The position numbers were made by a program, and so were the translations under genes. The notes beneath the pieces were generated by a model that worked only from the letters and a program-made list of their open reading frames with translations, had not been told where the DNA came from and did no database searches. A stretch of 64,000 bases of DNA from Roseobacter sinensis (GTDB taxonomy: Bacteria > Pseudomonadota > Alphaproteobacteria > Rhodobacterales > Rhodobacteraceae): contig NZ_JALIEB010000013.1 of assembly GCF_025755255.1 (NCBI RefSeq), positions 1 through 64,000 on the forward strand, in the 5' to 3' direction. Position 1 is the stretch's first letter. Every line of letters begins with the position of its first letter. Positions 25,620-40,895 of this stretch are shown in pieces.

Positions 25620-25650
25620 TTGAACCTATAGTTGCTTGAGGTTGTATCAC
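25620..25650 (+). promoter_or_regulatory. MerR-type promoter A (before L,D-transpeptidase 1)
   Basis: TTGAAC at 25620-25625, a 19-base spacer and TATCAC at 25645-25650. The spacer plus the -35 end holds ACCTATAGTTGCTTGAGGT, an inverted repeat with perfect outer ACCT/AGGT. It shares its layout with sites at 26763, 37271 and 40865. Confidence 0.65.
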
Positions 25651-25712
25651 CACGATAAAACCCGATGACAAACGCCACAAGACTGTTGGAATTAGAAGCC
25701 GGAGTACGATTA

Positions 25713-26354
25713 ATGCTGACACGACGTCATTTCATTTCAACGAGCGCTGCATTGTTCTCGGCACCGTTGGCAAGCCCCGTGTTGGCAAAAAGCTGGCCGA
25801 CAAATAGCGAGAAGGCCGCCTGGGATGCGCAAGTTACTCCGGTAGGGTACGATCCGGCGACGTCAAACCCATGGGGGCTGCAGTCTCGGTTTCTACCGCA
25901 GCGAGTGACTGCGAACGATGGGCTGAAACCGGGGGACATTCACGTCGATGCAGTTGCGCGCTATCTCTACCACATCGAGGATGGCGGCACAGCGATGCGC
26001 TATGGTGTGGCCATTGCGAGGGGTAATCTCTACGAGCCGGGAACCTACACAATAAAGCGCAAGGTTGAATGGCCGCATTGGACGCCAACGGCCTCCATGA
26101 TCGAGCGGAACCCCGAATACGCTCAATGGGCAGATGGGCAGGAACCGGGGCCGAGTAATCCGCTTGGATCCCGTGCGCTTTACCTCTTTGTTGGCAATCG
26201 AGACACCTATCTAAGAATACACGGATCGCCTGAGGCGCGATCTATCGGTGGTCGGGCCAGTTCAGGCTGCGTCCGTATGGTGATGGCGCATATCAACGAT
26301 CTCTACCCAAATGTACAGATTGGCTCGACAGCACACCTTTACGCTGCCGAATGA
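25713..26354 (+). CDS. L,D-transpeptidase (ErfK/YkuD family), Tat-exported
   Basis: A 213-residue periplasmic enzyme. The N-terminus LTRRHFISTSAALFSAPLA is a twin-arginine-type signal. The YkuD catalytic motif is HGSPEARSIGGRASSGCVRM, with the nucleophile Cys. Upstream, ERNPEYAQW and PSNPLGSRALYL are typical of ErfK-like members. The reaction is 3-3 peptidoglycan cross-linking or attachment of lipoproteins. GGAG lies nine bases before the ATG at 25713. A MerR-type promoter at 25620 makes it a likely metal-induced gene. It is paralogous to the protein at 40925. Confidence 0.88.
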   Translation: MLTRRHFISTSAALFSAPLASPVLAKSWPTNSEKAAWDAQVTPVGYDPATSNPWGLQSRFLPQRVTANDGLKPGDIHVDAVARYLYHIEDGGTAMRYGVAIARGNLYEPGTYTIKRKVEWPHWTPTASMIERNPEYAQWADGQEPGPSNPLGSRALYLFVGNRDTYLRIHGSPEARSIGGRASSGCVRMVMAHINDLYPNVQIGSTAHLYAAE

Positions 26355-26373
26355 CCTCTTCCACGAGCAACGG

Positions 26374-26640
26374 TCAGGCTTCTTTGGCCACGCAAATCGG
26401 GTTGCCGCGCGCCGTGCGCAACGGCAACAGCGTGGTTTCGACAGGGCCACTGTGTTCGTACCAGTAGCAACCGTCTTCTGGGCGAAGGCGGGCTGTAGCC
26501 AGATTCTGACCAGGCCCGGCCAACTCAACCACGGCTTCCGGGACGTTCCCGATATCGGATGGCCCGTTTGGAGGCGTCGTAGCTGAACACGCGCTCAATA
26601 AAATAGCGCCTACCAATAGTGTTCCTGATCCAATTCGCAC
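26374..26640 (-). CDS. Small lipoprotein of unknown function
   Basis: An 88-residue protein with a lipoprotein signal: MRIGSGTLLVGAILLSACS has the lipobox LSAC. The mature part ends with EDGCYWYEHSGPVETTLLPL and a second Cys near the C-terminus that may pair with the first. The start is GTG at 26640, supported by AGGGGG six bases upstream; the longer open frame to 26877 is not protein-like. It converges with the L,D-transpeptidase. The function is unknown. Confidence 0.65.
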   Translation of the reverse strand: MRIGSGTLLVGAILLSACSATTPPNGPSDIGNVPEAVVELAGPGQNLATARLRPEDGCYWYEHSGPVETTLLPLRTARGNPICVAKEA

Positions 26641-26762
26641 GACAACCCCCTGCCAGTTCACACAATTTGCATTTCTACGGATATCAATCGCATTCTCTGC
26701 GCCATGTTGCAACGACCTCAGTTGTGCCGTTTGGAAATCTACAACGACATTGGAGTTAGGTC

Positions 26763-26793
26763 TTGAACCTAAAGCCACTGGAGACATTAGAGT
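26763..26793 (+). promoter_or_regulatory. MerR-type promoter B (before the CadA-like ATPase)
   Basis: TTGAAC at 26763-26768, a 19-base spacer and TAGAGT at 26788-26793. The spacer contains CTAAAGCCACTGGAG, which fits the MerR-family operator pattern CT-NN-AG-NN-ACT-NN-AG. Its symmetry is weaker than in copies C and D. Confidence 0.6.
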
Positions 26794-26823
26794 CGTTTCA
26801 ACATATGATTCTGGAGAGATCAA

Positions 26824-29190
26824 ATGGCGGCAAATTCCGAGACCGAGCAACACGACGTCTCTCACGCACATGACCATTCAACGAATGGTTCTGGTGAGGC
26901 AACCTGCTGCGGTGGCGGCACGGGATCTGCGGGCGCAATCCCTTCAACGCCGCCCGAGCATGGCCGAAGCTTTCAGGTGAGTGGCCTCGACTGCGCCGAA
27001 GAGGTCTCCATCCTCTCCAAAGTCGTCGGTCCGAAACTCGGCGGGGCAGAGCACCTGGCTTTTGATGTGATCAACGGTCGGATGACCGTGCTGGAAAGCG
27101 CTGACCAGATTTCGGACAGCCAGATCTTGGACTTGGTTGCCAGCACGGGGATGACGGCCCGTGCGTGGGACGCGGACAATGCCAGCGCCGATCAGGCGTC
27201 GCATCTCGCCAAACAGAAATGGTTCACGATTCTGAGCGGCGGCTTCTGGGCCGCGGGATTTCTGTGGCACATCATCGAGACCGGCATGGGGGGGGCACTC
27301 GGCCTCTTCGCGGGGCACGGCGAAGCGCCGATGCCACTGGTCGAGGCAGGGCTATTCGCGGTTGCGATCCTGTTCGGTGTCTGGCTCGTGGCACCCAAGG
27401 CATGGTCGTCCGCACGGCGGCTGTCGCCCGACATGAATCTGCTGATGGTCGTCGCAGTCGCGGGTGCAATTGGCCTTGGCGAATTTTTCGAGGCGGCAAC
27501 GGTCGCGTTCTTCTTCTCGCTCTCGCTTTTCCTCGAAAGCTGGAGCGTCGGGCGTGCGAGGAATGCGATTTCAGCTCTGCTCGACCTCGCGCCGCCGACG
27601 GCAAGAGTTCTTAATGATGACGGCACGGAAGCGGACGTTCCGGCTTCCGCGGTTGCTATCAACGCACGTTTCATCGTGCGGGGCGGCGACCGCATCCCAT
27701 TGGATGGTGAGGTTGTCGATGGGGCAGGGGCCGTCGATCAGGCGCCAATCACCGGAGAGAGTGCGCTGGTCCCGAAGGAACGGGGCGACGAAGTCTACGC
27801 CGGTACGATCAACGGCGAAGGCACACTGACGGTGCGCGCCACGAAGGCCGCCTCGGATACCGTGTTGGCCAAGATCATCCGCATGGTCGGTGACGCCCAT
27901 GCCCGCCGCGCGCCGGTGGAGCAGTGGGTGGCGAAGTTCGCCCGCATCTACACGCCTATCGTCATGGCTCTCGCCATCGCAATTGCCCTGCTGCCGCCGC
28001 TCATTTTCGGGGGGGCCTGGGATTATTGGTTCTACAATGCACTCGTGCTGCTGGTGATCGCTTGCCCATGCGCTCTGGTCATCTCGACACCGGTCTCCAT
28101 CGTCGCTGCACTCACCGCCTCAGCGCGGGCCGGGGTGCTGATCAAGGGCGGCGCATATGTTGAGGCACCGGGCAAGACGACTGCACTGGCCATGGACAAG
28201 ACCGGCACGATCACCATGGGCGAGCCCGAGGTGGCGGCGGTGCATCTGCTGGGCAAAGCATCGGCGCAAGATCTGATGACCCTCGCCGCTGGACTGGAGG
28301 CACGTTCCTCGCATCCCTTGGCGCGCGCCATTCTCGCGCGGGCAGAAGCCGACGGGATCAATGTGTCCGCCGCGCAAGATACCCGAACCGTTCCCGGTAG
28401 GGGACTTGAAGGACGCACAGACGGCCGGTCGATCTGGCTAGGGTCCGACCGGTTTGCCGAGGATAAGGGTTTCGGCGACGCCATTCCGAAGGATTTGCGC
28501 GACCGCATCGAAGGCGCCGGCAGCACCCTTGTTGCCGTGGGCGACGACACCGGCGTGACGGGCATTCTGGAATTGCGCGACCGTATCCGCCCCGACGCCA
28601 AGGGCATCGTGGCACGGCTCCACGCGCAAGGCGTGAAGACCATCGTCATGCTGACGGGCGACAACGAGCGGACAGCGCGCGCCGTTGCCGCCGAGGTCGG
28701 CATCGACGAGGTCCGCGCCGAGCTTCTGCCCGAAGACAAGGTGACTGCCATCGAAGAACTGGTCGAAACGCATGACATGGTGGCCATGATCGGCGACGGG
28801 GTGAACGACGCCCCCGCCATGGCACGTGCGCATTACGCCATCGCGATGGGTGCTGTTGGTTCGGACGCGGCAATCGAGACGGCGGATATTGCCCTGATGA
28901 CCGACGACCTCGGCAAGGTGCCTTGGCTGATCGGTCATTCGCGCCGGACAATGTCGATTATCCATCAGAACATCGGTATTTCCTTGGCGACCAAGGGTGT
29001 TTTCGTCGTCGCTACTGCGTTCGGAGTGGCATCGATGTGGGGCGCTATTGCAGCCGACGTAGGAGTGTCATTGCTGGTGGTGGCCAACGCCCTGCGCCTG
29101 CTTAACAGCCAAGAGGCCAAGGCGCCGCCGTCCGGCGGTGATCAGGTTGGTCCACAGATAACAAAAGCCGCGCTTGCCCACGGACATTGA
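26824..29190 (+). CDS. Zn/Cd/Pb-type P1B ATPase (CadA/ZntA-like)
   Basis: A 788-residue efflux ATPase. The N-terminal tail is His-rich with a CC pair (HDVSHAHDHS, EATCCGGG). An HMA-like domain follows with GLDCAEEVSI, retaining only one Cys of CxxC. Core motifs are ITGESALVPKE, CPC at 414-416 followed by ALVISTPVSIV, DKTGT with Asp458, SSHP and [14 protein letters not shown] with ALVISTP and the terminal-helix pattern place it in the divalent Zn/Cd/Pb branch, unlike the copper ATPase at 9915. GGAGAG precedes the ATG. A MerR-type promoter lies 30 bases upstream. Confidence 0.9.
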   Translation: MAANSETEQHDVSHAHDHSTNGSGEATCCGGGTGSAGAIPSTPPEHGRSFQVSGLDCAEEVSILSKVVGPKLGGAEHLAFDVINGRMTVLESADQISDSQILDLVASTGMTARAWDADNASADQASHLAKQKWFTILSGGFWAAGFLWHIIETGMGGALGLFAGHGEAPMPLVEAGLFAVAILFGVWLVAPKAWSSARRLSPDMNLLMVVAVAGAIGLGEFFEAATVAFFFSLSLFLESWSVGRARNAISALLDLAPPTARVLNDDGTEADVPASAVAINARFIVRGGDRIPLDGEVVDGAGAVDQAPITGESALVPKERGDEVYAGTINGEGTLTVRATKAASDTVLAKIIRMVGDAHARRAPVEQWVAKFARIYTPIVMALAIAIALLPPLIFGGAWDYWFYNALVLLVIACPCALVISTPVSIVAALTASARAGVLIKGGAYVEAPGKTTALAMDKTGTITMGEPEVAAVHLLGKASAQDLMTLAAGLEARSSHPLARAILARAEADGINVSAAQDTRTVPGRGLEGRTDGRSIWLGSDRFAEDKGFGDAIPKDLRDRIEGAGSTLVAVGDDTGVTGILELRDRIRPDAKGIVARLHAQGVKTIVMLTGDNERTARAVAAEVGIDEVRAELLPEDKVTAIEELVETHDMVAMIGDGVNDAPAMARAHYAIAMGAVGSDAAIETADIALMTDDLGKVPWLIGHSRRTMSIIHQNIGISLATKGVFVVATAFGVASMWGAIAADVGVSLLVVANALRLLNSQEAKAPPSGGDQVGPQITKAALAHGH

Positions 29191-29253
29191 TCACTCAGCA
29201 TTTGCAAGGTAACGTAATGTCAATATCAGACCTCACGAAAGAGGCATCGAGCA

Positions 29254-29766
29254 GTGAAAACCATCCGATTTCCCCGCCGCGCCGTCCTGTTGGGCGGGTT
29301 GGCAGCGTTTTTGTCCGGCTGTGCTAGCAAGTTCCGCAGCTATGGCGGACCCGAGGTGACCCGTGTTCGGCTTTATAAGGGGCAGCGCTTGCTTGTTCTC
29401 GACGGAGCCGATCGCGTATTGCAAACCTATCCGGTCGGGCTGGGTTTCGCTCCTGTGGGTCACAAGCAATTCGAGGGAGACGGCCGGACCCCGGAGGGCA
29501 CCTACATAGTAGATAAGCGCAACCCTGAAAGTACGTATCATCTTTCAGTTGGTATCTCTTATCCGAACGAGGCCGACATCGCCTTTGCCGAAGCGCAGGG
29601 CCTTTCCCCCGGCGGCGACATCTTCATCCATGGTGGTCCACGCCCGGGCATCGACCCGACAAATGTCCGCGATTGGACAGCTGGCTGCATCGCGGTCACA
29701 GATCGGCAGATCGAGGACATCTATGCAATGGTGAAGGACGGAACACCTATCCACATCTTTGCATGA
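29254..29766 (+). CDS. L,D-transpeptidase lipoprotein (YafK-like)
   Basis: A 170-residue YkuD-domain protein with a lipoprotein signal (RRAVLLGGLAAFLSGCAS; lipobox LSGC). Catalytic features are HGGPRPG and RDWTAGCIAVTD, including the nucleophile Cys. It differs in type from the two Tat-exported paralogs. The GTG start at 29254 follows AGAGG, 63 bases after the CadA-like ATPase, so both are probably cotranscribed from the MerR-type promoter at 26763. Its 3' end overlaps the convergent lnt end by 20 bases. Confidence 0.85.
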   Translation: MKTIRFPRRAVLLGGLAAFLSGCASKFRSYGGPEVTRVRLYKGQRLLVLDGADRVLQTYPVGLGFAPVGHKQFEGDGRTPEGTYIVDKRNPESTYHLSVGISYPNEADIAFAEAQGLSPGGDIFIHGGPRPGIDPTNVRDWTAGCIAVTDRQIEDIYAMVKDGTPIHIFA

Positions 29767-31354
29767 CGGTCCTTCTCATGCGGCGGTAGTGAGCCGTCGC
29801 ATTGGCCGCCATTGCCCAGCTCCACGAAGCCAAGATGAGCGCCAACAGCATCCAGTCCCCGAAGCTCGCGTAGAGTGTCGGCGGTCGCGCGGAGGGCAGG
29901 CTAGCGTCGATGATGCCCGTTTCGCCGGTATCGAGCCGCGCAACGATCTCTCCGCTCGCGTCGATGACCGCAGAGATGCCCGTATTCGCGGCTCGAATTA
30001 CAGGAAGGCCTTCCTCTATGGCGCGCATACGTGCGGAAGCCAGATGCTGCTCAGGTCCGATGCTGGTGCCAAACCAGGCGTCGTTGGTGGCGTTGAAGAT
30101 CCAGTCTGGCCTGAACAGGTCGTCGACCACATGGCTTGGGAAGATGATCTCATAGCAGATCGCCACGGCGACCAGCGGCACACCCGGAAGCGCAAGCGTT
30201 CGCGGGCCCGGTCCGGGCGTAAAATCGCCCAGACCCGCCGTGAGCCGCTCGATGGGCAACCAGCCACGGAATGGCACATATTCGCCGAAGGGTACGAGAT
30301 GGTGTTTCGCGTATCCGGTCAGGATTCCGCCGGTCGCGCCAAAAGCCTGGACCGTGTTGAAATATCGGGTGCCATCCTCGCTCGGTACCCGGTCCGGCAC
30401 CCCGGTGAGCAGCACGCTGCCTTCTGGTAGCGCGGCGGCAATGCGGGTCTGCGCCTCCGTATCCTCATCGAGGAAACCCGGAAAGGCGGTTTCCGGCCAG
30501 AGAAGAACGTCGAAATCGCCGCGCCGGGTTGAAAGCTCAAGATAGCGCGCGAATGTCGCCTCGCGGTTCTCGGGCGCCCATTTCTCCTCTTGTGGAATGT
30601 TGCCTTGGACAATGCGCAGGTCGACACCGGATGGCTGTTGTGCATCCGACTGGAGGCGAAGCGTGCCGACAGCCCACATCGTCGCTATGCCGGCCAGCGC
30701 CATGAGCGAGATGGTCAATCGTTGCCGCCCGGACGCCATGGCAGCCGCGCCGGGGAGTACCGCAACGAACACGGTGAGAAAGCTTAACCCATAGCTTCCG
30801 ACCCAGGCGGCGGGCTGGCGAAAAGCGGCGTAATCGACCATAGCGTAGCTGGCGAGGTTCCACGGAAATCCTGTCAAAACGTGACCTCGCAACCACTCGG
30901 CAGCGGTCCAGGAGGTCGCGAACAGGAGGCAGGCCAAGAGACTGCCCATGGCTCCGCGCCGCGCGATTTCGGCAAAAAGCGCGGCGGCAATGGCTGGGAA
31001 AATCGCGAGACCTGCGGACAATCCCGCGACCGCCGGGATCGCCATCGTCCCAAACCGCTCGGCCTCGACGTAGAAACTCTCTGCAATCCACGAAATCCCG
31101 AAACCGAACTGGCCAAGACCAAACGCCCAGCCGACGAGGAAAGCGCGCCCGAAGGAGAGATCGCGAAGACCGACAAACAACGCGGAATAGGCAATGGGAA
31201 CAAGCAAGAGAAGCGAGAAAGGCGGGAAAGTCAGAACGGTCAGCGCCCCGGCGACGAAACCAAGCGTCATCCGCGAAAGAAAACGGTGGCGCAGAGCGAT
31301 GCGGTTCAGAATTTCCGGCTTCACGACTTGATCGAACGCCGCGCGCTGATCCAT
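29747..31354 (-). CDS. lnt: Apolipoprotein N-acyltransferase
   Basis: A 535-residue inner-membrane enzyme that adds the third acyl chain to lipoproteins. About six N-terminal helices are followed by a nitrilase-like domain. LLWPETAFPGF carries the catalytic Glu, YAKHHLVPFGEYVPF the Lys region, and AICYEIIFP the nucleophile Cys. The open frame extends upstream to 31609 but that part is antisense to lspA; I chose the ATG at 31354, which overlaps the lspA end by 34 bases. It is the last gene of the leftward operon. A chromosomal copy is usually essential, so this is probably a second copy. Confidence 0.88.
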   Translation of the reverse strand: MDQRAAFDQVVKPEILNRIALRHRFLSRMTLGFVAGALTVLTFPPFSLLLLVPIAYSALFVGLRDLSFGRAFLVGWAFGLGQFGFGISWIAESFYVEAERFGTMAIPAVAGLSAGLAIFPAIAAALFAEIARRGAMGSLLACLLFATSWTAAEWLRGHVLTGFPWNLASYAMVDYAAFRQPAAWVGSYGLSFLTVFVAVLPGAAAMASGRQRLTISLMALAGIATMWAVGTLRLQSDAQQPSGVDLRIVQGNIPQEEKWAPENREATFARYLELSTRRGDFDVLLWPETAFPGFLDEDTEAQTRIAAALPEGSVLLTGVPDRVPSEDGTRYFNTVQAFGATGGILTGYAKHHLVPFGEYVPFRGWLPIERLTAGLGDFTPGPGPRTLALPGVPLVAVAICYEIIFPSHVVDDLFRPDWIFNATNDAWFGTSIGPEQHLASARMRAIEEGLPVIRAANTGISAVIDASGEIVARLDTGETGIIDASLPSARPPTLYASFGDWMLLALILASWSWAMAANATAHYRRMRRTVMQRCG

Positions 31355-31803
31355 GGCGCGGCGAGCAAGAGCCCCACGCCACTGACGACAAATACATCGG
31401 CCAAGTTGAAGGCAGGCCAATGTGTTGTGCCAATGTAGAAATCGAGAAAGTCTGTTACAGCCCGATACCGCACACGATCGATGACATTGCCCAGGGCTCC
31501 GCCAATCATCGCGCCATAGGCAAGCGTTTCGACCGCATTGTCGGCGCGAAACAGCATAATCCCCAGCCAAACACAGATGACAAGAGCGAGAGCGATGAGG
31601 CTCCACCACGGCGCGCCGCCCAGCATCCCGAAAGTCACGCCGTCATTACGATAAAAGACGAGGTTGAATCGCGGAAACACGGAAATCCCGGCGCTTAAAG
31701 TGGCGGCATTCGCAACGACAATGGCTTTGGTGATCTGATCAATCGCGAACGCAGCAAGCGCCGCGAAGACGCCGATAACCGGAGATACCTTGTTTAGTGA
31801 CAT
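31321..31803 (-). CDS. lspA: Lipoprotein signal peptidase (signal peptidase II)
   Basis: A 160-residue four-helix protease. Catalytic aspartates are in GGALGNVIDRV and FNLADV; VFYRNDGVTFGML is the N-terminal conserved loop. It cleaves prolipoproteins before the lipid-modified Cys. The ATG at 31803 starts four bases after the ZIP stop. LspA-like genes are known in lead/cadmium resistance operons (pbrC), which fits the neighbouring MerR-controlled metal genes. Confidence 0.9.
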   Translation of the reverse strand: MSLNKVSPVIGVFAALAAFAIDQITKAIVVANAATLSAGISVFPRFNLVFYRNDGVTFGMLGGAPWWSLIALALVICVWLGIMLFRADNAVETLAYGAMIGGALGNVIDRVRYRAVTDFLDFYIGTTHWPAFNLADVFVVSGVGLLLAAPWISARRSIKS

Positions 31804-31807
31804 TGCC

Positions 31808-32590
31808 TCATCCCAACCAGACATCAAGGAACAGCATCAGAACGAGCCCGACTGCCAGCCCGAGCGTTGCCCTGTTCTGATGGCCGCTGCGATGGGTTTC
31901 AGGGATGATTTCGTGGCTGATGACGTAGAGCATCGCTCCCGCGGCAAAGGCCAGACCCCAAGGCAGCAGCGGTTCCGACAGTGTGATGATCCCGGCCCCG
32001 AGCAGGCCGCCAATCGGCTCGACCATGCCCGTCAGCGCCGCGATGCCCCAGGCGCGCAGCTTCGGATATCCCTCGCCCAGCAGAGATACAGCGACGGCCA
32101 ATCCTTCGGGCGCATTCTGAAGCCCGATGCCGATGGCGAGCGGCAGACCGCCCTCCATACCTCCGGATCCGAAGCCGACCCCGACCGCGAGGCCTTCGGG
32201 GAAGTTGTGGATCGTGATCGCGATGATGAACAGCCAGACCCGCCGCAAAGACGCCGCTTCGGGCCCTTCGCGTCCCGTCTTGAAGTGCTCGTGCGGCAGC
32301 TTCTCGTTCATCAGCGCGACAGCCCCCATGCCCAGAAGGATCGAGACGCATACGATGGCCGCAGGCATCGCGTCGTTTTCGAACATTGGCTCTGCCGCAT
32401 CCAATGCCGGGATGATCAGCGAAAAGAACGAGGCTGACAGCATGACACCGGCAGCGAAGCCGAGCGACAGATCGCGCGTGGCCCGGGACGGGATGCGCCC
32501 GAACAGCACGGGAGCTGCCCCGACTGCCGTGAGCGAACCGGCAGCGAGACTTCCGAGAAAGCCGAGCATTATCGGAGACAGATTTTCCAT
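31808..32590 (-). CDS. ZIP-family metal transporter (GufA-like)
   Basis: A 260-residue, eight-helix transporter. The metal-site helices are ITIHNFPEGLAVGVGFGSG and GIGLQNAPEGLAVAVSL, followed by MVEPIGGLLG and YVISHEIIPETHR. ZIP proteins move divalent metals toward the cytoplasm, so its presence among efflux genes is notable. A His-containing loop (LPHEHFKTG) follows helix 3. It lies in the tightly packed operon between DUF411 and lspA. Confidence 0.88.
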   Translation of the reverse strand: MENLSPIMLGFLGSLAAGSLTAVGAAPVLFGRIPSRATRDLSLGFAAGVMLSASFFSLIIPALDAAEPMFENDAMPAAIVCVSILLGMGAVALMNEKLPHEHFKTGREGPEAASLRRVWLFIIAITIHNFPEGLAVGVGFGSGGMEGGLPLAIGIGLQNAPEGLAVAVSLLGEGYPKLRAWGIAALTGMVEPIGGLLGAGIITLSEPLLPWGLAFAAGAMLYVISHEIIPETHRSGHQNRATLGLAVGLVLMLFLDVWLG

Positions 32591-32602
32591 GGGCGGGCCA
32601 GA

Positions 32603-33058: not shown

Positions 33059-33061
33059 GGG

Positions 33062-34435
33062 TCAGAGCCTTTCGGTTGTCGTTTCGGCAATCTCGCTGCC
33101 GAGGTTTTGATTCAGAAGTGCGCGCGCCTCGGCCAGACGCGAGAGCGCGGCGGTATCATCCGCTTCGCTCTCGGCTGCTTCGGCGAGCCGGTCGTCAGCG
33201 AGGGGGTCAGTCGGGCGCCCATCCACGAGGACTTCGTAGTGCAGGTTCGGACCTGTCGCCGTACCAGTCGCGCCGACGCGGCCGATCACATCTCCCGCCG
33301 CAACGCGTTGGCCTTGTGCCAGGTCTTCCGGCACGGCGCTCAGATGCGCGTAGCGCGTCATGGTGTCGGAGCCGTGGGCGATTTCGACCACTCGACCATA
33401 GCCGCCCCGCCAGCCGATGAAACTGACCCGCCCCGGTGCCGTCGATTGAACCGGTGTCCCACGTGCCGCTGCGAAATCGACGCCGGTGTGCATCCGGACG
33501 TTGCCAAAGACCGGATGCGTACGGCGTCCGAACACCGAGCTTAGGCGCGCACCCTCGACCGGCTGTGCGAAGACGCGCAGCACCTCGCCATCGACGTAGA
33601 TCGTCGCCTGACCGCTGCCGTCGTTTGGCCATACGATCTCGTAAAGCGAACCGCCGATCTCCAATGCGGCGAAGGCGAGCTCGGGCTGTCCGATCCTGTC
33701 CTCGCCCACACGCGCCTCGCGCCAGAGAAGCCTTAGTGTCTCGCCACCGGCCAACTCGCGGCGGAAGTCCACGGTCCCACCCAGCATCTGCGCAAGGTCC
33801 ACGGAAAAACGGGCGGGTATGCCGGCTTCGTCGAGTGCCGCGAAGATCGAGCTGTAGATCACCGCTTCGCCGGCAAGGGTTACGATCTCCGGATCCGGAG
33901 CCACGACCTGCGTGGACAACTTCTCGCCGAAAACCACCTCGATCCGAACCCCGTCCTCGACGGCGAGTGAGACGGTGCGGGGGCTGCCGTCCACGGTCGA
34001 AGCGACAGTGACCGAGTGCCCCGGCCGCAGCCGTCGCAGATCGTATTCCGCGCCAAGCGCGAGGGCAACTTCGGCTCTGTCAGGTGCCGCAAGTCCAGCT
34101 TCGGACAGCAAGAAATCGAGCGTCTCGCCAGGTGCAATGTCGCGCGACCACGTCGACAGCGGTGGCTCGATCGCCCTTACCGGCCTGTCGGCAAACGCGA
34201 CCTGCAGAAGGGGTAGGGGGCCGAGGTCGGGTGCATCCTCTGCCCATGCCGTCGCGGGCAGCGTCACGAGGATTTCAACGTTTCTAGGGGCTTCAGGACC
34301 TTGGGGCATCCAGCTACCTGCCTGGGCAAGTTCCGGCGGCACGGGTTCTTTCGACATGAAATCAGAGATGGCGATAGCCGCTCCCGAAACCGTCCCCGCA
34401 ATTGCGACACCCGCCGCCAAAGTTCTGAGCCTCAT
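33062..34435 (-). CDS. M23 (LytM-type) metallopeptidase
   Basis: A 457-residue protein with an N-terminal membrane anchor. A long extracytoplasmic region with OapA/LysM-like character (ETLDFLLSEAGL) precedes the M23 domain. Zn ligands are in MHTGVDFAAARGTPV and NLHYEVLVDGRPTDP, with the catalytic region around TMTRYAHLSAV. Such enzymes cut peptidoglycan cross-bridges. The ATG at 34435 overlaps the SCO stop as ATGA. Its place in a metal-responsive operon suggests wall remodelling together with the L,D-transpeptidases. Confidence 0.88.
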   Translation of the reverse strand: MRLRTLAAGVAIAGTVSGAAIAISDFMSKEPVPPELAQAGSWMPQGPEAPRNVEILVTLPATAWAEDAPDLGPLPLLQVAFADRPVRAIEPPLSTWSRDIAPGETLDFLLSEAGLAAPDRAEVALALGAEYDLRRLRPGHSVTVASTVDGSPRTVSLAVEDGVRIEVVFGEKLSTQVVAPDPEIVTLAGEAVIYSSIFAALDEAGIPARFSVDLAQMLGGTVDFRRELAGGETLRLLWREARVGEDRIGQPELAFAALEIGGSLYEIVWPNDGSGQATIYVDGEVLRVFAQPVEGARLSSVFGRRTHPVFGNVRMHTGVDFAAARGTPVQSTAPGRVSFIGWRGGYGRVVEIAHGSDTMTRYAHLSAVPEDLAQGQRVAAGDVIGRVGATGTATGPNLHYEVLVDGRPTDPLADDRLAEAAESEADDTAALSRLAEARALLNQNLGSEIAETTTERL

Positions 34436-35058
34436 GTCGCCCCCTCCATTTCTTCTGCTAGCGCGCGGCGAATTTTCGGCACCGCGAATTCTCTGGGTTC
34501 GTGATAGTCGATCATGGTGACGAACCGCCCAGAGGCTGCGAACAGGAAGACGCTCGCGGTGTGGTTCATCGTGTAATCGCCGCTTTCCGTCGGCACCCGC
34601 TCGTAGGTGGCGCGGAAGCCGTCCGCGACGCGCGCGATCTGCTCTTCCGGTCCCGTCCAGCCACGTATCCCAGGATGGAAGTAGCCGACATATTCGGCCA
34701 TCGTTTCGACAGTGTCGCGCTCGGGATCGACCGTGATGAAAACCACGTTCATTTCGTCGGCCTCGTCTCCCAGATCGTCGAGCCATCCCGAAATGTCCGA
34801 GAGCGTGGTCGGGCAGACATCGGGACAGTAGGTAAAGCCGAAGAACGCCATCGTCGGGCGACCGATAAGGGTTTCTGGCCCGACCGCGTTGCCCTCATGA
34901 TCCGTCAGACGGAAATCCATCTCGGTCAGGGCCACAGGCCGCTGCCCGACAGGTTCGGGTCCACCGGGTCCATCGACCTGCCACCAACCGACGAAGAGCA
35001 TCAGGGCGACCGCCCCGACACCAGCCGCCCCGTACCCCAGGATCGCCCGTCGCCGCAT
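34432..35058 (-). CDS. SCO-family copper chaperone / thiol protein (copy 2)
   Basis: A 208-residue membrane-anchored thioredoxin-fold protein. FGFTYCPDVCPTTLSDIS holds the Cu-binding CxxxC, and NHTASVFLF the His ligand. SCO proteins deliver copper to, or reduce thiols of, the CuA centre of cytochrome oxidase. The start is ATG at 35058, overlapping the PCu(A)C stop (TGATG). The window holds two SCO genes in one operon. Confidence 0.88.
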   Translation of the reverse strand: MRRRAILGYGAAGVGAVALMLFVGWWQVDGPGGPEPVGQRPVALTEMDFRLTDHEGNAVGPETLIGRPTMAFFGFTYCPDVCPTTLSDISGWLDDLGDEADEMNVVFITVDPERDTVETMAEYVGYFHPGIRGWTGPEEQIARVADGFRATYERVPTESGDYTMNHTASVFLFAASGRFVTMIDYHEPREFAVPKIRRALAEEMEGAT

Positions 35059-35525
35059 CAGTCCTCTGGCCCCCGCGCGGCGATTCCAAGGATCGGCACC
35101 TCGACCGTCACTTCGCCTCCGTCGTCGAAAAGCAGGGTCAGCGGAAAGGTGTCCCCTTCCGTCATCGGTTCTTGTAGCCGCATCAGCATTGCGTGCAGGC
35201 CCCCCGGTTCGAGCGCGACGCTCTCGCCCGGGGCGATCGCGATCTCCCCCGCCGGGCTCATGGAACTCACACCTTCGGCATTTGTCTTCGTCTCGTGAAT
35301 TTCGGGCATCATCGCGAGCGGTGTTGTAAGGCCGATCAGCGTCACTGGCTCGTCGCCAGTGTTGCGGATCGTCATGTAAGCGGCCCCGGGACGGTTCATC
35401 CCGATGGAGGCGCGGGACCACGCGTTCTCGACGACAACATACTCGAGTCCGGCCAGCGCGGGCGCTGAGAACCCTCCAAGGGTCAAAAGCGCCGCCAGTG
35501 TGCTGGTCAAAATATACTTTTTCAT
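35058..35525 (-). CDS. PCu(A)C periplasmic copper chaperone
   Basis: A 155-residue exported protein; the signal peptide ends GGFSAPALA. The Cu(I) site is formed by MMPEIHETKTNAEGVSSM and GGLHAMLM, the family's H(M)X10MX21HXM-type motif. It works with SCO proteins in CuA assembly or buffers periplasmic copper. It lies 23 bases after the DsbA-like gene and overlaps the SCO start. Confidence 0.88.
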   Translation of the reverse strand: MKKYILTSTLAALLTLGGFSAPALAGLEYVVVENAWSRASIGMNRPGAAYMTIRNTGDEPVTLIGLTTPLAMMPEIHETKTNAEGVSSMSPAGEIAIAPGESVALEPGGLHAMLMRLQEPMTEGDTFPLTLLFDDGGEVTVEVPILGIAARGPED

Positions 35526-35548
35526 CGTTCTGATCCTGCCCTTTCCAT

Positions 35549-36208
35549 TCAGCTTTGCACAGCAGCGACTTCGGCAGCCACCAGACGACGCAATTCTGCC
35601 TCTCCGAATGGATCGAGCGGCTTGCCGTTCACGAAGAATGTGGGCGTCTGGCGAATTCCCACGGTCTCGACGTCAGCACGATCCTGGTTCAGGATCGCCA
35701 CGACATCGGGTGCCAGCATTTGCGTGCGCGCGGCCTCGGCATCGAGTCCGGCCGTGGCGGCGATCTGAAGGATCAGGCCAGGCGCCGGGGCACCGTGCGA
35801 CGCCCATCTCGGCTGTTCCCGCAGAACGGCCTCAAGCACCGGCACGTAAACGTCCTGCATGCGCGCCGCCTCGAGCACGCGGATCGCTTCCTCGGATGCC
35901 GCGCCGTGGAAGGGCGTGTAGCGGATCACGACGCGGACAGCATCCCCATGCTCGGCCATGATGTCCTTCACGATGGGATGAAAGGCGCGACAGGCCTCGC
36001 AGGCCGGATCGAAGAATTCGACGATCGTGACGGGCGCTTCCGCAGGCCCGAGGATGGGCGAGTAGGGGCGGATCATCGCGTCCGCGAGTTCCGGCGCAAC
36101 AGGCTCCGCTTCGGCCACCGGGCCGGGGCGGGTTGCAAACCAGGTGGCTCCGCCGAAGCCGGCGACGCCGAGGGCGAGAACGGACAGGATCAGGCCGCGT
36201 CGGTTCAT
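35549..36208 (-). CDS. DsbA-family thioredoxin (DsbA2)
   Basis: A 219-residue protein with an N-terminal anchor. The thioredoxin domain has EFFDPACEACRAFHP as the CxxC site and IRQTPTFFVNG as the cis-Pro loop. It overlaps the DsbB start region as ATGA, so the two form an oxidative pair. Together with SCO and PCu(A)C it probably keeps periplasmic copper and cysteine chemistry in balance. Confidence 0.85.
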   Translation of the reverse strand: MNRRGLILSVLALGVAGFGGATWFATRPGPVAEAEPVAPELADAMIRPYSPILGPAEAPVTIVEFFDPACEACRAFHPIVKDIMAEHGDAVRVVIRYTPFHGAASEEAIRVLEAARMQDVYVPVLEAVLREQPRWASHGAPAPGLILQIAATAGLDAEAARTQMLAPDVVAILNQDRADVETVGIRQTPTFFVNGKPLDPFGEAELRRLVAAEVAAVQS

Positions 36209-36627
36209 GTTCGTGTGTCCTTCAATGAAAGGGCCGACAGCGCCCCGATCAGCGCGAAGGCGGCGAGCGCCATCAGCGGGATCGGGATGCCGAAGACCAG
36301 TTGGTTGTCATCGGTGCAAGAGGGGCCGGTGGCCGTGCAGGGCTGGATGCGTTCGGGAACAAGACCGACGTACAGCCCCATGTGCCAGAGGGCGATTGCG
36401 CCGCCGCCAAGCGCCAATGCGATGCCGTAGCGCCCCACGCGGCCGTCCCGCCACCAAAGGCCGAGCCCGAGGACAATGGCCAAGGGAAACATGAAGGCGC
36501 GCTGGAACCAGCACAGCAAACAGGGCGTCTGCCCCAGCACCTCGCCGATGAAAAGCACGGCAAGCGAGGCGACGAGTGCGATGATCCACGCCAGCCCGAG
36601 GGCTGTTTCTCCGGATATGCGGTTCAT
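36205..36627 (-). CDS. DsbB-family disulfide oxidoreductase (copy 2)
   Basis: A 140-residue, four-helix membrane protein. The first redox pair is QTPCLLCWFQRAFMF and the second is PCTATGPSCTDD. It is the quinone-linked oxidant for the adjacent DsbA-like protein. The ATG at 36627 begins MNRISGETA; the frame is open further upstream but overlaps the SCO gene. It starts five bases after that gene's stop. Confidence 0.87.
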   Translation of the reverse strand: MNRISGETALGLAWIIALVASLAVLFIGEVLGQTPCLLCWFQRAFMFPLAIVLGLGLWWRDGRVGRYGIALALGGGAIALWHMGLYVGLVPERIQPCTATGPSCTDDNQLVFGIPIPLMALAAFALIGALSALSLKDTRT

Positions 36628-36632
36628 TTCGG

Positions 36633-37235
36633 TCAGATCCTCTCTTCCAGATCGGCGAGGATCTTTTCGGCGGAGGTGCCGTAGGGCCACGAGTCGGCGA
36701 AGCCCGCGTCGGGATCGAAGAGGAACAGATGCGACGTGTGGCCCATCGTGTAACCATCCGGCGCTGCGGCCTCTTCGACGCGCTCAAAGAAGATTGGAAA
36801 CGTCTCGGACGTGGCGGCGATCTGTTCCGGCGTGCCCGTCAGCCCGATGATGCCCGCATCGAACAGCGGGACGTATTCGGCGAGTGCTGCGGGCGTGTCT
36901 CGTTCAGGGTCGATTGTTATGAAAATCGGCTGGACCTTGGCGGCATCGTCGCCCAGACCCTCCATCACCGCCGCGACCTCAGATAGGGTCGTCGGGCAGA
37001 CGTCGGGGCAGTTGGTAAAGCCGAAAAAAACAAGCATCCAGCGCCCCGCAAAGTCCTCCTCGGTTTGAACCATACCCTGGTGGTCCGTCAGTTCGAACTC
37101 AGCGAAAAAAGGCGGCTCGGCGTCAGTTCGGGCGCTATCGGCACGATAATCGGACCATAGCAAGAGCCATACGAAGGCAAGCGCTGCCACGCCTGCCAAA
37201 ACCCAAAGAAACTTCTGTGCCGATGTAAGGGACAA
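36633..37235 (-). CDS. SCO-family copper chaperone (copy 1), first gene of the operon
   Basis: A 200-residue membrane-anchored thioredoxin-fold protein with FGFTNCPDVCPTTLSEVA (Cu-binding CxxxC) and MGHTSHLFLFD (His ligand). The start is TTG at 37235 with AGGA nearby. It is the first gene downstream of MerR-type promoter C and leads ten tightly packed leftward genes ending with lnt. It is similar in layout to the SCO copy at 34432. Confidence 0.87.
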   Translation of the reverse strand: MSLTSAQKFLWVLAGVAALAFVWLLLWSDYRADSARTDAEPPFFAEFELTDHQGMVQTEEDFAGRWMLVFFGFTNCPDVCPTTLSEVAAVMEGLGDDAAKVQPIFITIDPERDTPAALAEYVPLFDAGIIGLTGTPEQIAATSETFPIFFERVEEAAAPDGYTMGHTSHLFLFDPDAGFADSWPYGTSAEKILADLEERI

Positions 37236-37270
37236 TCCTGTTCGCCTGTTTTTGATTCTTATTGCATGTG

Positions 37271-37301
37271 CGGATACATCCTCTAGCCGCTAGAGGTTCA
37301 A
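37271..37301 (-). promoter_or_regulatory. MerR-type promoter C (leftward, ten-gene operon)
   Basis: Read on the minus strand: TTGAAC at 37301-37296, a 19-base spacer, then TATCCG at 37276-37271. The spacer contains CCTCTAG-CGG-CTAGAGG, a perfect 7+7 inverted repeat. It lies between the divergent SCO and MerR genes, the classical position for a MerR operator. Confidence 0.8.
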
Positions 37302-37406
37302 GCACGAAATCATGGTATAGCTTGAACTCACGCGTCTGTGAATCCGACACTTGTTTATTCCGACGGCAAAACCTACACAAACTGTATCTTTTTCATGGAG
37401 GCGAAA

Positions 37407-37835
37407 ATGCTCACGATCGGTACTCTGTCAAAGAAGACTGGCACAAAAGTGCAGACTATCCGGTACTACGAACAGATCGGACTCATGCCCGAACCTGGCA
37501 GGACCGAAGGCGGACAGAGGCGCTACGACAATGCACAGCTCGACCGACTGTCCTTCATCCGCCATTCGCGGCAACTCGGTTTCTCGCTCGATGCGATCCG
37601 CGAGCTGCTCGACCTCAGCGACCATCCCAACCGCCCCTGCGACGAGGCAGATGCCATCGCGCGTCGCCAGCTCAAACAGGTGGAGCAGCGCATGGCCCGC
37701 CTGAAGGCGCTGCGCACGGAACTGAAACGCATGGTTCACGAATGCAGCGGCGGGCGGACCGGAGACTGCAAGGTGCTTGAGGTGTTGCGGGACCATTCGG
37801 AATGCCTGACCGAGCACGAGGAAATCGGGGCCTGA
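37407..37835 (+). CDS. MerR-family metal-responsive activator (ZntR/CadR/PbrR-like)
   Basis: A 142-residue regulator. The winged helix is MLTIGTLSKKTGTKVQTIRY and EQIGLMPEPGRTEGGQRRY. A dimerisation coiled coil follows, then the metal-binding C-terminus with NRPCDEADAI, VHECSGGRTGDCKVLEVL and a final SEC. The Cys/His layout resembles ZntR, CadR or PbrR rather than the two-Cys CueR loop, pointing to Zn, Cd or Pb. GGAGG seven bases upstream decides the ATG at 37407. It is encoded divergently from the SCO operon and is the probable activator of promoters A-D. Confidence 0.88.
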   Translation: MLTIGTLSKKTGTKVQTIRYYEQIGLMPEPGRTEGGQRRYDNAQLDRLSFIRHSRQLGFSLDAIRELLDLSDHPNRPCDEADAIARRQLKQVEQRMARLKALRTELKRMVHECSGGRTGDCKVLEVLRDHSECLTEHEEIGA

Positions 37836-37917
37836 AGGAAGTCAGCCAACATTCCGGCTGGAACGCAGATCAGCCGCAGAAGTTAATGTGTCGTACAACA
37901 CAAGCTGGAACCACAAA

Positions 37918-38517
37918 ATGGCCGCTAGACAAGATTCAATGGAGAGACGGACGCTTTGGATCGTTCTGGCGCTTAATATCGGCTTGGCCGTGGCCTTTTT
38001 CGCAACAGGCGCCTTCGGCGACTCAAGTGCCCTGATCGCCAACGGGCTCGATAACCTCTCCGACAGCTTCGTCTACGCGATCAGCCTTTTCGCTTTGTCC
38101 CGATCCGACAAATGGAAACGCGGGGCGGCGAACATCTCCGGTGGGCTGCTGATCCTGTTCGCTGCAGGCATCCTCTACGATGCGTGGCGCCGCTACATCG
38201 GCGGGTCAGATCCGCTCGGGACGATCATGATCGCCATGGCCCTGATGGCGGCGGCCATCAACGCAGTCTGCGTCTGGCTGCTCGCTAAGCTTAAAGATCC
38301 GGACGTCAACATCCGCGCGGCCAACACCTTCAGTTACAACGATTTCGCCGCGAACCTCGGAATCGTCGTGGCTGGCGGCCTCGTCGCCTGGCTGGGAACA
38401 AACTGGCCGGACCTCGTCGTCGGCGTGATTGTCGCCGGGATCGCGGCCTGGGGAGGTATCGACATTCTGCGCGACGCACACGGCGAACACCACAAAGCAG
38501 TTCATACGGGCAAATAG
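37918..38517 (+). CDS. Short CDF-like cation transporter
   Basis: A 199-residue membrane protein with six helices but no C-terminal cytoplasmic domain. ANGLDNLSDSFVYAI and FSYNDFAANLGIVV correspond to the helix 2 and helix 5 metal sites of cation diffusion facilitators, with Asn replacing one usual His. Likely Zn/Co/Cd efflux. The start is uncertain: GTG at 37888 and ATG at 37939 are in frame. It follows merR by about 80 bases in the same direction. Confidence 0.75.
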   Translation: MAARQDSMERRTLWIVLALNIGLAVAFFATGAFGDSSALIANGLDNLSDSFVYAISLFALSRSDKWKRGAANISGGLLILFAAGILYDAWRRYIGGSDPLGTIMIAMALMAAAINAVCVWLLAKLKDPDVNIRAANTFSYNDFAANLGIVVAGGLVAWLGTNWPDLVVGVIVAGIAAWGGIDILRDAHGEHHKAVHTGK

Positions 38518-38612
38518 TTGCGGGAGATTCTTTCTGAAAGAAAGGATTGAAGCTACAGTGACTATAGCAATTAGTCTTGTTCCAAGACGATTCGAGGAGC
38601 GACCCGTTGCAT

Positions 38613-39368
38613 ATGACCGACCCCCTACTTGTACCCACCAAACTACTGGATTTTGATGCCGCGCCTCTTGCGCATCTAATTGAGACCCGCGGCTGGCGCG
38701 GCTTATCCGAATACGATCGGATCGGAGCTACCTATGATTTCGTTCGGAATGAAATCGCGTTCGGATACAATCGAGCCGACGACATCCCCGCCTCGGATGT
38801 GCTTTCCGACGGCTATGGGCAGTGCAATACCAAAGGGACGCTCTTGATGGCGCTGCTGCGTGGTGTCGGCATTCGTTGCCGGTTGCATGGGTTTACGATC
38901 CACAAAGGCTTGCAGCGCGGTGTTGTCCCAGAGTTGGTGTATCCGCTTGCTCCTCAGGAAATTCTCCACTCATGGGTTGAGATCGAATATCAAGGTGCTT
39001 GGATCAATTTCGAAGGCTTCATCCTGGATGACGCTTTCCTCAAAGTCCTGCAAACGTCTTTCTCGGACACGGACAGTCTCTGCGGTTATGGCGCGGGCAC
39101 GGATTGTCTTGGCGCGCCTCCCGTCGCCTGGAACGGAGAAGATACCTACATTCAGAAAACCGGCATCGTGCAAGATTTCGGCGTGTTTGATACGCCGGAC
39201 GCCTTCTATTTGTCCCATGAGCAATCCTTTGGATGGCTGCGTGGTGCCCTTTACCGTCATATCATCCGCCACTGGATGAATGCGCGCGTACGTGGTTTCC
39301 GCAGCGGCCGCCTCAAGACTGACGGACGCGCGACACACGCGCATAAGGAGCCTGCCAATGCCGCATGA
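38613..39368 (+). CDS. Transglutaminase-like domain protein
   Basis: A 251-residue cytoplasmic protein. The transglutaminase/protease-like fold shows DGYGQCNTKGTLLMALLRGV with the catalytic Cys, then LHSWVEIEYQGAWINFEGF with the catalytic His and the acidic/Asn position. The substrate is unknown; bacterial members act as proteases or amidases. The ATG at 38613 follows GAGGAG at some distance. Its 3' end overlaps the CDF gene by 11 bases, so the two are probably coexpressed. Confidence 0.78.
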   Translation: MTDPLLVPTKLLDFDAAPLAHLIETRGWRGLSEYDRIGATYDFVRNEIAFGYNRADDIPASDVLSDGYGQCNTKGTLLMALLRGVGIRCRLHGFTIHKGLQRGVVPELVYPLAPQEILHSWVEIEYQGAWINFEGFILDDAFLKVLQTSFSDTDSLCGYGAGTDCLGAPPVAWNGEDTYIQKTGIVQDFGVFDTPDAFYLSHEQSFGWLRGALYRHIIRHWMNARVRGFRSGRLKTDGRATHAHKEPANAA

Positions 39369-40275
39369 TCATGGGCACGCGCATATTGATCCGGATACTG
39401 GCGATCGGCGGGTTGCCATCGCGATCTGGGCGAACGGGCTTCTTACCGTTGCGCAGATCGTCGGGGGCATATTCTCGGGTAGTCTGGCACTGATCGCCGA
39501 TGCGCTGCACAACTTTTCCGATATGGCTTCGCTTGTCATTGCCTTTGCCGCGCGCAGGATCGCGCGCCGCCCGGCCGATGAGCGCATGACCTTCGGATAT
39601 GGCCGGGTCGAAATCGTCGCAGCCCTGATTAACTACACCACCCTGATCGTGATCGGCTTCTACCTGATCTACGAGGGTAGCATGCGCATGATCGATCCGC
39701 CCGAAGTCATGGGGTGGACCGTCGTCATTCTCGGTGGAATCGCGCTTGTGGTCGACACGCTGACCGCAATGCTGACCTATTCGATGCAGAAGGGGAGCGT
39801 GAACATCCGTGCGCTTTTTCTCCACAACCTTTCGGATGCGTTGGCTTCAGTGGCCGTCATAGTCGGCGGGACGCTCATTATACTTTATGATATGCGTTGG
39901 GTTGATCCGGCCATCACCATCGGCATCGCGCTCTACATCCTGTATCTGTCCTTCACCGAAATAGGGGGCCCAATTCGAACCCTGATGCTCGGAAGCCCGC
40001 CAGATATTGATGGAAATGACGTGGTCAGAGCGATCCAGAGTGTCGATGGCGTTGTGGACGTGCATCATGTCCACCTGTGGCAAATGCAGGAGCACGCTGC
40101 GGCATTGGACTGCCATATTGTCGTCGAACGCGAACGGATGGGTGAGGCCGACAAGATTAAAGAAAACGTCAAATCGGTGCTGCATGAACGTTTCTCAATC
40201 GAGCATTCCACGCTTGAATTCGAAGCGAGCGACAATGCGCATCAGGAGGCGCAGGTGTTCGGACACCGCTCATGA
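39358..40275 (+). CDS. CDF-family zinc/cadmium exporter (CzcD-like)
   Basis: A 305-residue proton antiporter. A His-rich N-terminus (PHDHGHAHIDPD) precedes six helices. Metal-site motifs are IADALHNFSDMASL and LFLHNLSDALASVAV, both HxxxD. The C-terminal cytoplasmic domain contains DVHHVHLWQMQEHAAALDCH. Substrate is likely Zn, Cd or Co. AAGGAG precedes the ATG at 39358. It overlaps the methyltransferase gene by four bases (ATGA). Confidence 0.9.
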   Translation: MPHDHGHAHIDPDTGDRRVAIAIWANGLLTVAQIVGGIFSGSLALIADALHNFSDMASLVIAFAARRIARRPADERMTFGYGRVEIVAALINYTTLIVIGFYLIYEGSMRMIDPPEVMGWTVVILGGIALVVDTLTAMLTYSMQKGSVNIRALFLHNLSDALASVAVIVGGTLIILYDMRWVDPAITIGIALYILYLSFTEIGGPIRTLMLGSPPDIDGNDVVRAIQSVDGVVDVHHVHLWQMQEHAAALDCHIVVERERMGEADKIKENVKSVLHERFSIEHSTLEFEASDNAHQEAQVFGHRS

Positions 40276-40829
40276 CGATTGCCCAAGGCATACTAGTGGT
40301 CGTTGGCCTGCTGTCCGGTCTGGTTTTGATTGGTGCGCTCCTTTGGTCGATCGCCCGCCCGTCCAAGCGCATCTGGCCTCCAAACAGAGAGCATTCAGTC
40401 ATACCAAACACTGCATGGGGACTCACATTGGCCGTGTTTGGGGCGGTGATCGGTTTGGGCATTTTGGATTGGAAATCCGCTTCTATGACCAACGCGCTCC
40501 GTTGGGCGGTCGGGCCGTTCTTGATCGCAACCGGAAATCTGATTGTCTGGTGGGGGGCATTCAGCATTGGACTGAAAGCCACCAGCGGTGCGAAAGACGA
40601 GCTGATCACTTCGGGTCTCTACCGTTTCTCTCGGCATCCGCAATACCTTGCCGACATGGCCATCCTGATAGGCTTTGGTCTTCTCTTCGCGTCACCTTGG
40701 GTTTGGGCTATCGTCATCGTTGGAGTTGCCGCGCTGGCCCTTGCCCCGCTCGCAGAAGAGCCGTGGCTGAATGAACAATACGGCTCCAAGTATCGCGATT
40801 ATTGCGCTGAAACGCGTCGTTACCTGTAA
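40272..40829 (+). CDS. Isoprenylcysteine methyltransferase-like membrane protein (copy 2)
   Basis: A 185-residue membrane protein of the ICMT/PEMT fold. The signature is SGLYRFSRHPQYLADMAIL, followed by AEEPWLNEQYGSKYRDYCAE near the C-terminus. It is translationally coupled to the CDF exporter, as the other copy (12575) is to the DUF2933 gene of the copper ATPase operon. The substrate is unknown. The repeated association with metal exporters suggests a shared accessory role. Confidence 0.78.
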   Translation: MTIAQGILVVVGLLSGLVLIGALLWSIARPSKRIWPPNREHSVIPNTAWGLTLAVFGAVIGLGILDWKSASMTNALRWAVGPFLIATGNLIVWWGAFSIGLKATSGAKDELITSGLYRFSRHPQYLADMAILIGFGLLFASPWVWAIVIVGVAALALAPLAEEPWLNEQYGSKYRDYCAETRRYL

Positions 40830-40864
40830 ACTCGCGACCTCACGAGAACGTCATCGTTTTTCAG

Positions 40865-40895
40865 TTGAACCTCTAGCTACTAGAGGTCGTATCCG
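40865..40895 (+). promoter_or_regulatory. MerR-type promoter D (before L,D-transpeptidase 2)
   Basis: TTGAAC at 40865-40870, a 19-base spacer and TATCCG at 40890-40895. The repeat ACCTCTAG-CTA-CTAGAGGT is a perfect 8+8 inverted repeat. Its -10 is identical to that of promoter C. Confidence 0.8.

Follow-up and report, generated by a model that had tools for sequence, protein, structure and literature searches.

Five MerR-type promoters around one regulator gene

The window analyzed here comprises the first 64 kb of a 112,670-base contig (C9) in the 4.9-Mb genome of Roseobacter sinensis. Within it lies an island in which five MerR-type promoters, P1 to P5, head 17 genes grouped about one merR gene, and shared control of these genes by the local MerR protein is well supported as a sequence-based prediction. 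As can be seen in Table 1, P1 precedes ldtA, the gene for an L,D-transpeptidase (Ldt) of the YkuD type, and P5 precedes a second such gene, ldtB. P2 lies before a ZntA-type ATPase gene that is followed, 63 bases on, by ldtC. P3, divergent to merR, leads into a run of ten genes (SCO-DsbB-DsbA-PCuAC-SCO-M23-DUF411-ZIP-LspA-Lnt), and P4 into the transglutaminase-like, CDF and ICMT genes. The intergenic gaps in the ten-gene run are 33 bases or less; throughout, operon membership was assigned from a common strand and gaps of no more than 63 bases.

The five elements read TTGAAC-CTATAGTTGCTTGAGGTTG-TATCAC (P1), TTGAAC-CTAAAGCCACTGGAGACAT-TAGAGT (P2), TTGAAC-CTCTAGCGGCTAGAGGATG-TATCCG (P3, minus strand), TTGAAG-CTACAGTGACTATAGCAAT-TAGTCT (P4) and TTGAAC-CTCTAGCTACTAGAGGTCG-TATCCG (P5), and a 19-base spacer is common to all of them. 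Dyad pairing, counted by eye as 8+8 bases around three central bases, amounts to 8/8 in P5, 7/8 in P3, 6/8 in P1 and 4/8 in P2, such that the dyad is strong in P3 and P5, fair in P1 and weak in P2. An initial annotation of this DNA had described P1, P2, P3 and P5 as four matched sites with TTGAAC, a 19-base spacer holding an inverted repeat and a TA-type -10 element. All four are present at the positions it gave, and the Pfam and NCBIfam models agree with the genes it placed behind them, namely a YkuD protein, a ZntA-type ATPase, the ten-gene run and a second YkuD protein. The inverted repeats were as described at P5 and P3, but the one at P2 is poor, and both P4 and the third transpeptidase, LdtC, had been overlooked.

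The sites are not chance motifs. When the pattern TTGAACCTNNAGNNNCTNGAGG was sought with up to three mismatches, the window yielded nine matches (three of them the same dyads on the opposite strand), whereas 100 shuffled versions averaged 0.34 and never reached nine. With up to two mismatches allowed, the whole genome contains six matching places, four of which are P1, P2, P3 and P5, and the reversed pattern gave none. A weight matrix was trained on 44 distinct merR-facing sites of other genomes, from which the window's own record and every Ldt site had been removed. Note that the pattern yielding these training sites was derived from the window and that the 31-mer of P3 recurs identically in the training-set genomes. 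The matrix recovers all five sites, with scores of 40.6, 22.8, 46.6, 23.1 and 42.2 for P1 to P5, respectively. Apart from these, a position at 9717 and the dyads read backwards, every other position in the window scores below -5. The top score in 30 first-order Markov resamples of the window was 7.9, and none yielded a site at the threshold of 15, a value set after the scores were known. The top score falls on P3, the site divergent to merR.

The further MerR-type site, at 9717-9747 (TTGACC-N19-TACAGC, score 19.3), stands upstream of a gene at 9915 for a copper-type ATPase. By eye, the half-sites are CueR-like, and the site thus probably belongs to another regulator. Two additional sites of the MerR type, likewise with CueR-like half-sites, lie on contig C9 beyond the window (locus L009, 18342 on the plus strand and 10370-10340 on the minus strand; scores 18.0 and 15.5).

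Table 1. Coordinates of the promoters and genes of the island
Feature	Position	Strand	Evidence or remark
P1, MerR-type operator/promoter before LdtA	25620..25650	+	matrix score 40.6; like-placed site in many LdtA relatives
LdtA, L,D-transpeptidase (YkuD)	25713..26354	+	Pfam PF03734 2.2e-21
P2, MerR-type operator/promoter before ATPase, weak dyad	26763..26793	+	matrix score 22.8
ZntA/CadA-type P1B ATPase	26824..29190	+	Pfam; NCBIfam TIGR01525, TIGR01512
LdtC, YkuD enzyme of LdtF/DpaA kind, without own site	29254..29766	+	PF03734 2.6e-18
Gene 10, Lnt, apolipoprotein N-acyltransferase	29747..31354	-	PF20154, PF00795
Gene 9, LspA, prolipoprotein signal peptidase	31321..31824	-	PF01252
Gene 8, ZIP family metal transporter	31808..32569	-	PF02535
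Gene 7, DUF411 protein	32603..33058	-	PF04214
Gene 6, M23 peptidase	33062..34435	-	PF01551
Gene 5, second SCO1/SenC protein	34432..35058	-	PF02630
Gene 4, PCu(A)C copper chaperone	35058..35525	-	PF04314
Gene 3, DsbA-like thioredoxin	35549..36208	-	PF13462/PF01323
Gene 2, DsbB-like protein	36205..36627	-	PF02600
Gene 1, SCO1/SenC protein	36633..37235	-	PF02630
P3, MerR-type operator/promoter, divergent to merR	37271..37301	-	matrix score 46.6
MerR-family regulator (Cys78, Cys113, Cys121, Cys133)	37407..37835	+	PF13411/PF09278
Short cation-efflux protein, without own site	37888..38517	+	PF01545
P4, fifth MerR-type operator/promoter	38547..38577	+	matrix score 23.1
Transglutaminase-like protein	38613..39368	+	PF01841
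CDF cation exporter	39358..40275	+	TIGR01297 2.8e-73
ICMT/PEMT-like membrane methyltransferase	40272..40829	+	PF04191
P5, MerR-type operator/promoter before LdtB, perfect 8+8 dyad	40865..40895	+	matrix score 42.2
LdtB, L,D-transpeptidase (YkuD)	40925..41494	+	PF03734 2.1e-20
Transglutaminase-like genes directly before CDF exporter genes	window 38613-39368; L007 8051-8806; L100 30384-31139; L101 13181-13951 (fetched loci)

The YkuD domain lies above the PF03734 cut-off in LdtA, LdtB and LdtC alike, and inspection by eye reveals the catalytic His/Cys motifs HGS...SSGC, HGT...SNGC and HGG...TAGC in the three proteins. By the same means, LdtA was seen to contain an SSGCVRM motif and a twin-arginine-like signal, RRHFIS, and LdtB an SNGCIGL motif and the signal RRQFVS. 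The start of LdtA is most likely that in Table 1, following the Roseobacter litoralis annotation. LdtC gives a weak match to NF040599, below the cut-off, and on the basis of an LSGC sequence read by eye is likely a lipoprotein. In Roseobacter litoralis Och 149, plasmid pRLO149_83 carries a stretch 100% identical to LdtA and its upstream DNA, as well as an LdtB copy at 97% identity. The right part of the window holds conjugation-like genes, recognised by eye only.

The operator in other genomes

The exact motif occurs in 77 of 390 genomes of the order, with none for the reversed control among the rows listed, and in 5 of 385 genomes of a class sample, with one for the reversed control; both counts include the present genome. 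Eighty distinct sites, three of them the window's own, were scored by the best island-protein match downstream. The commonest downstream gene is SCO (36 sites), followed by the long CDF type (14), LdtA (7), the short CDF protein and the ATPase (4 each), the transglutaminase-like protein (3), LdtB and M23 (2 each) and DUF411 (1); seven sites have none. In 54 of the 80, merR lies on the opposite side.

For a view independent of the motif, LdtA relatives were gathered by similarity from the matches listed, as 30 automatic loci and 80 chosen ones, the last 20 of these from the lower part of the match list; the set was completed by the window itself and by five plasmid stretches identified through similarity to the LdtA DNA. 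With repeated upstream sequences counted once, a site lies just upstream of 38 of the 95 distinct relatives, and none falls in the gene interiors (0/95); uncollapsed, 56 of 116 LdtA genes bear it. The same test placed a site before 20/20 ZntA-type ATPases, 5/7 LdtB and 3/3 SCO genes, again with none in the interiors. Furthermore, the LdtA site is present in 36 of the 52 genes whose fetched stretch also holds metal genes versus 4 of the 45 others (Fisher p 6e-10, kinship ignored), where the call of a metal neighbor varies with the fetched length of about 3 to 41 kb, and five of these 97 genes, four of them site-positive, came from loci fetched by the motif.

A midpoint-rooted tree of 93 LdtA proteins, from which rows with stops or fewer than 180 residues were omitted, contains a well-supported branch of 24 members, none with a site scoring 15 or more: 23 score below 0 and one is weak. 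This branch includes a copy from the present genome on contig C16. The other 69 proteins comprise all 37 site-bearers, 26 without a site and six weak cases. None of 11 LdtC relatives has a site of its own in a matrix scan of upstream DNA. The idea that every Ldt gene carries the site is ruled out by LdtC and by this site-free LdtA group.

Pairwise identity over 27 non-redundant LdtA promoters is 68% in the motif, against 42% in the ten bases that precede it, 24-27% in the fifty bases farther upstream and 27% in the ten bases after the motif. Since the motif is kept while most of the flanking sequence is random, selection appears to preserve the operator; simple duplication of promoter DNA is ruled out by the same flanks.

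The regulator and the metals it may sense

Which MerR acts on the sites was approached through co-occurrence. In a first count, an ortholog of the local MerR (at least 75% identity) was found in 37/37 site genomes, spanning 26 genera, and in 8/37 others (at least 71%). Two of these eight, G005 and G324, which had been dropped earlier as duplicates, do in fact bear the site, and the count thus becomes 39/39 genomes with a site-bearing LdtA versus 6/35 others. The 37 site and 37 comparison genomes were picked by hand, leaving aside additional site genomes that had been discarded as duplicates; a comparison genome is one whose fetched LdtA has no site scoring at least 15, such that G105, which scores 11, and G170, which has an unfetched island copy, are counted among them. 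Together with the motif before many Ldt genes and its conservation relative to the flanks, this co-occurrence favors the shared MerR control, Ldt genes included, that the initial annotation had proposed.

The regulator scores above the cut-offs of PF13411, PF00376 and PF09278. Its nearest PDB chains are 5gpe, a MerR-family regulator which we take to be PbrR691, and those of CadR; MerR, CueR and ZntR are also among the best matches. All of the NCBIfam equivalog cut-offs are missed: 101.6 of 167.95 for ZntR, 116.7 of 143 for PRK09514, 111.3 of 151.45 for CadR-PbrR and, for the best model, CueR, 118.2 bits of 147.4. Cys 78 aligns with a cysteine of 5gpe and CadR, a trait of divalent-metal sensors, whereas the loop Cys 113-x7-Cys 121 has the CueR spacing. 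The designation "ZntR/CadR-like" first given to this protein therefore fits Cys 78 but not the loop or the model scores. Both features recur in the set of 34 distinct sequences with 70% identity or more, the present one included, with a cysteine near position 78 in 34/34 and C-x7-C scored in 33/34.

Since Cys 78 is joined to a loop of CueR length, a mixed sensor of copper and of Zn/Cd/Pb is plausible, and it would fit a regulon having both ZntA/CDF pumps and copper-handling genes. According to PMC7911910, citing Ibanez 2015, CueR and GolS with the Ser77Cys change still respond to copper or gold, and their response to Hg, Zn, Cd and Pb is increased. The Cys 78/C-x7-C regulator would be the natural counterpart of these engineered sensors.

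On the basis of established MerR biology, from which binding and activation are inferred here, MerR would sit on the spacer dyads of at least five promoters, and its metal-bound form would distort the long spacer and thereby turn on the 17 genes. The induced set would include the ZntA-type pump, the CDF exporter, SCO, PCuAC and DsbA/B, along with the envelope enzymes, namely LdtA and LdtB from their own promoters, LdtC behind the pump, LspA, Lnt and the M23 peptidase.

Proposed purpose of the envelope enzymes and relation to known systems

According to PMC9302775, both L,D-transpeptidases and the maturation of lipoproteins are reported to be inhibited by copper. Elsewhere in the genome, LspA and Lnt are each encoded once more (on contigs C16 and C27, respectively), and contig C9 accounts for four of the genome's nine YkuD matches. 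The fourth of these, at 96996-97379 of the contig (L009 12996-13379), has an upstream MerR-type score of -32 and no site. Since the island adds copies of Ldt, LspA and Lnt, and both processes are reportedly poisoned by copper, target replacement is proposed as their purpose: besides exporting the metal, the cell would induce spare copies of those periplasm-exposed enzymes that metals poison. A single regulon in which the local MerR acts on P1 to P5, with target replacement as its purpose, is in our judgment probably the best explanation of the island, which would be plasmid-borne and serve metal resistance. The more specific scheme, in which a MerR of dual specificity drives target-replacement resistance to copper or Zn/Cd/Pb and plasmids spread the package through the Roseobacteraceae, is put forward tentatively and may well be wrong.

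A number of observations weigh against the single regulon or its proposed purpose. P2 and P4 are the weaker sites (22.8 and 23.1), and LdtC, Lnt and LspA have no site of their own, their control following from the operon assignment. Fifty-seven of the 95 distinct LdtA relatives lack the site. Among the 57 site-less genes in the 97-gene comparison, 16 have a metal gene nearby (41 have none), and one of the two LdtA genes on pDSHI01, the copy behind dsbB, is an example of a site-less island member. Six of the 35 genomes with a site-less fetched LdtA still hold the MerR ortholog. A second island in the present genome (C12:73563 onwards; L007 7564-10576) encodes a MerR 54% identical to the local one, a transglutaminase-like protein and, besides a CDF exporter, another CDF-like protein; before its transglutaminase-like gene, at C12:73990 (L007 7991), lies a close operator that deviates from the pattern at one position, and cross-control is thus possible. 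Finally, composition gave no hint of a metal-tolerant LdtA isoform, in that no depletion of His, Cys or Met was found in site-bearing LdtA compared with site-less relatives (3.36 and 3.49% His, 0.54 and 0.54% Cys, 2.72 and 2.69% Met, respectively). Replacement, if right, would therefore act through dose or through unseen changes.

The C12 paralog, with its one-mismatch operator, and the CueR-like site at 9717 raise the question of whether P1 to P5 are run wholly or partly by another MerR, either that paralog or a CueR. This appears unlikely given that the best-scoring site, P3, is divergent to the local merR and that every one of the 39 genomes with a site-bearing LdtA holds the local ortholog. 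It is far less probable still that the Ldt genes are passengers, their promoter-like repeats having arisen by duplication or chance and conferring no metal induction. The island does lie on a plasmid-like contig where several gene families are present multiple times, but the chance expectation is near zero, the motif is kept within mostly random flanks, and site and Ldt gene stay paired across genomes of many genera.

The main rival concerns purpose. The Ldts may be true members of the regulon that serve to reinforce the envelope, with outer-membrane tethering or extra cross-links lowering metal entry. The presence of an M23 peptidase together with three YkuD genes suggests remodeling, and the composition test, with no sign of metal-tolerant isoforms, leans the same way. 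Reinforcement leaves LspA, Lnt and the Dsb and SCO proteins in the same regulon unexplained, however, and it is considered a real possibility, albeit not the probable one; target replacement remains the preferred proposal.

ZntR and CadR regulons usually have a single target. The ZntR-zntA and CadR-cadA systems share with the island a MerR regulator, a Zn/Cd/Pb ATPase and, in the descriptions available, a cysteine at position 77-79 (Cys 79 in ZntR). The ZntR spacer is given there as 20 bases versus 19 here, and the CadR loop is C-x6-C rather than C-x7-C. CueR and GolS are described as having the C-x7-C loop found here (Cys 112 and Cys 120 in CueR), but CueR has Ser 77 where the present regulator has a cysteine near 78.

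The closest known arrangement is the pbr lead-resistance operon of Cupriavidus metallidurans CH34, which, in the available passages of PMC3431237, likewise has a MerR-family regulator, a 19-base spacer and a P-type ATPase with envelope enzymes; the PbrR-driven operon holds a prolipoprotein signal peptidase and an undecaprenyl-pyrophosphate (C55-PP) phosphatase. By promoter and gene content the island is a candidate PbrR-type regulon. The differences are that those passages describe one divergent promoter region, whereas five dispersed promoters are found here, two of them for single Ldt genes, and that no gene for an L,D-transpeptidase, Lnt, SCO, PCuAC or Dsb protein is mentioned in those passages. 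In two metal-tolerant Mesorhizobium strains, according to PMC3668242, a PbrC-like signal peptidase II is up more than threefold with Zn, and in each strain its gene is numbered close to a P1B ATPase locus; unlike the regulon described here, that paper makes no mention of transpeptidase, ErfK, YkuD or apolipoprotein.

The premise of the initial annotation that MerR regulons normally hold one pump is contradicted by these passages on pbr, an operon that already has envelope enzymes. Given the pbr and Mesorhizobium signal peptidases, MerR control of envelope genes is not in itself a novelty. The apparently new element, as judged from sequence comparisons, is that Ldt genes have MerR promoters of their own, that this arrangement is conserved across many genera, and that it forms part of a regulon with five promoters in which Lnt is included. 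No link between MerR control and L,D-transpeptidases was found among the matches listed from the open-licence PMC literature, although one may still have been published. The usual view of metal resistance is one of export, sequestration or detoxification. If the proposed regulon is real, metal sensing would be linked directly to peptidoglycan and lipoprotein biogenesis, and the replacement of poisoned envelope enzymes would become a testable route to resistance, like target bypass for antibiotics.

Several minor observations concern the same gene families. In four islands a transglutaminase-like gene stands directly before a CDF exporter gene (Table 1). On pDSHI01 of Dinoroseobacter shibae, a related island has lgt (L102 3486-4406), whose product is the first enzyme of lipoprotein maturation, next to a copper ATPase gene; lgt, lspA and lnt may thus all occur in such islands. 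A 1,3-transpeptidase of the LDTGo type, as described in PMC10864386, was also considered for the YkuD proteins, but none of the nearest PDB chains (6v45, 4lzh and 9tyw) could be tied to LDTGo. The chain nearest to LdtA, 6v45 (E 1.4e-44), is named "probable carnitine operon oxidoreductase CaiA"; the YkuD motifs are present in the alignment, and the name looks wrong.

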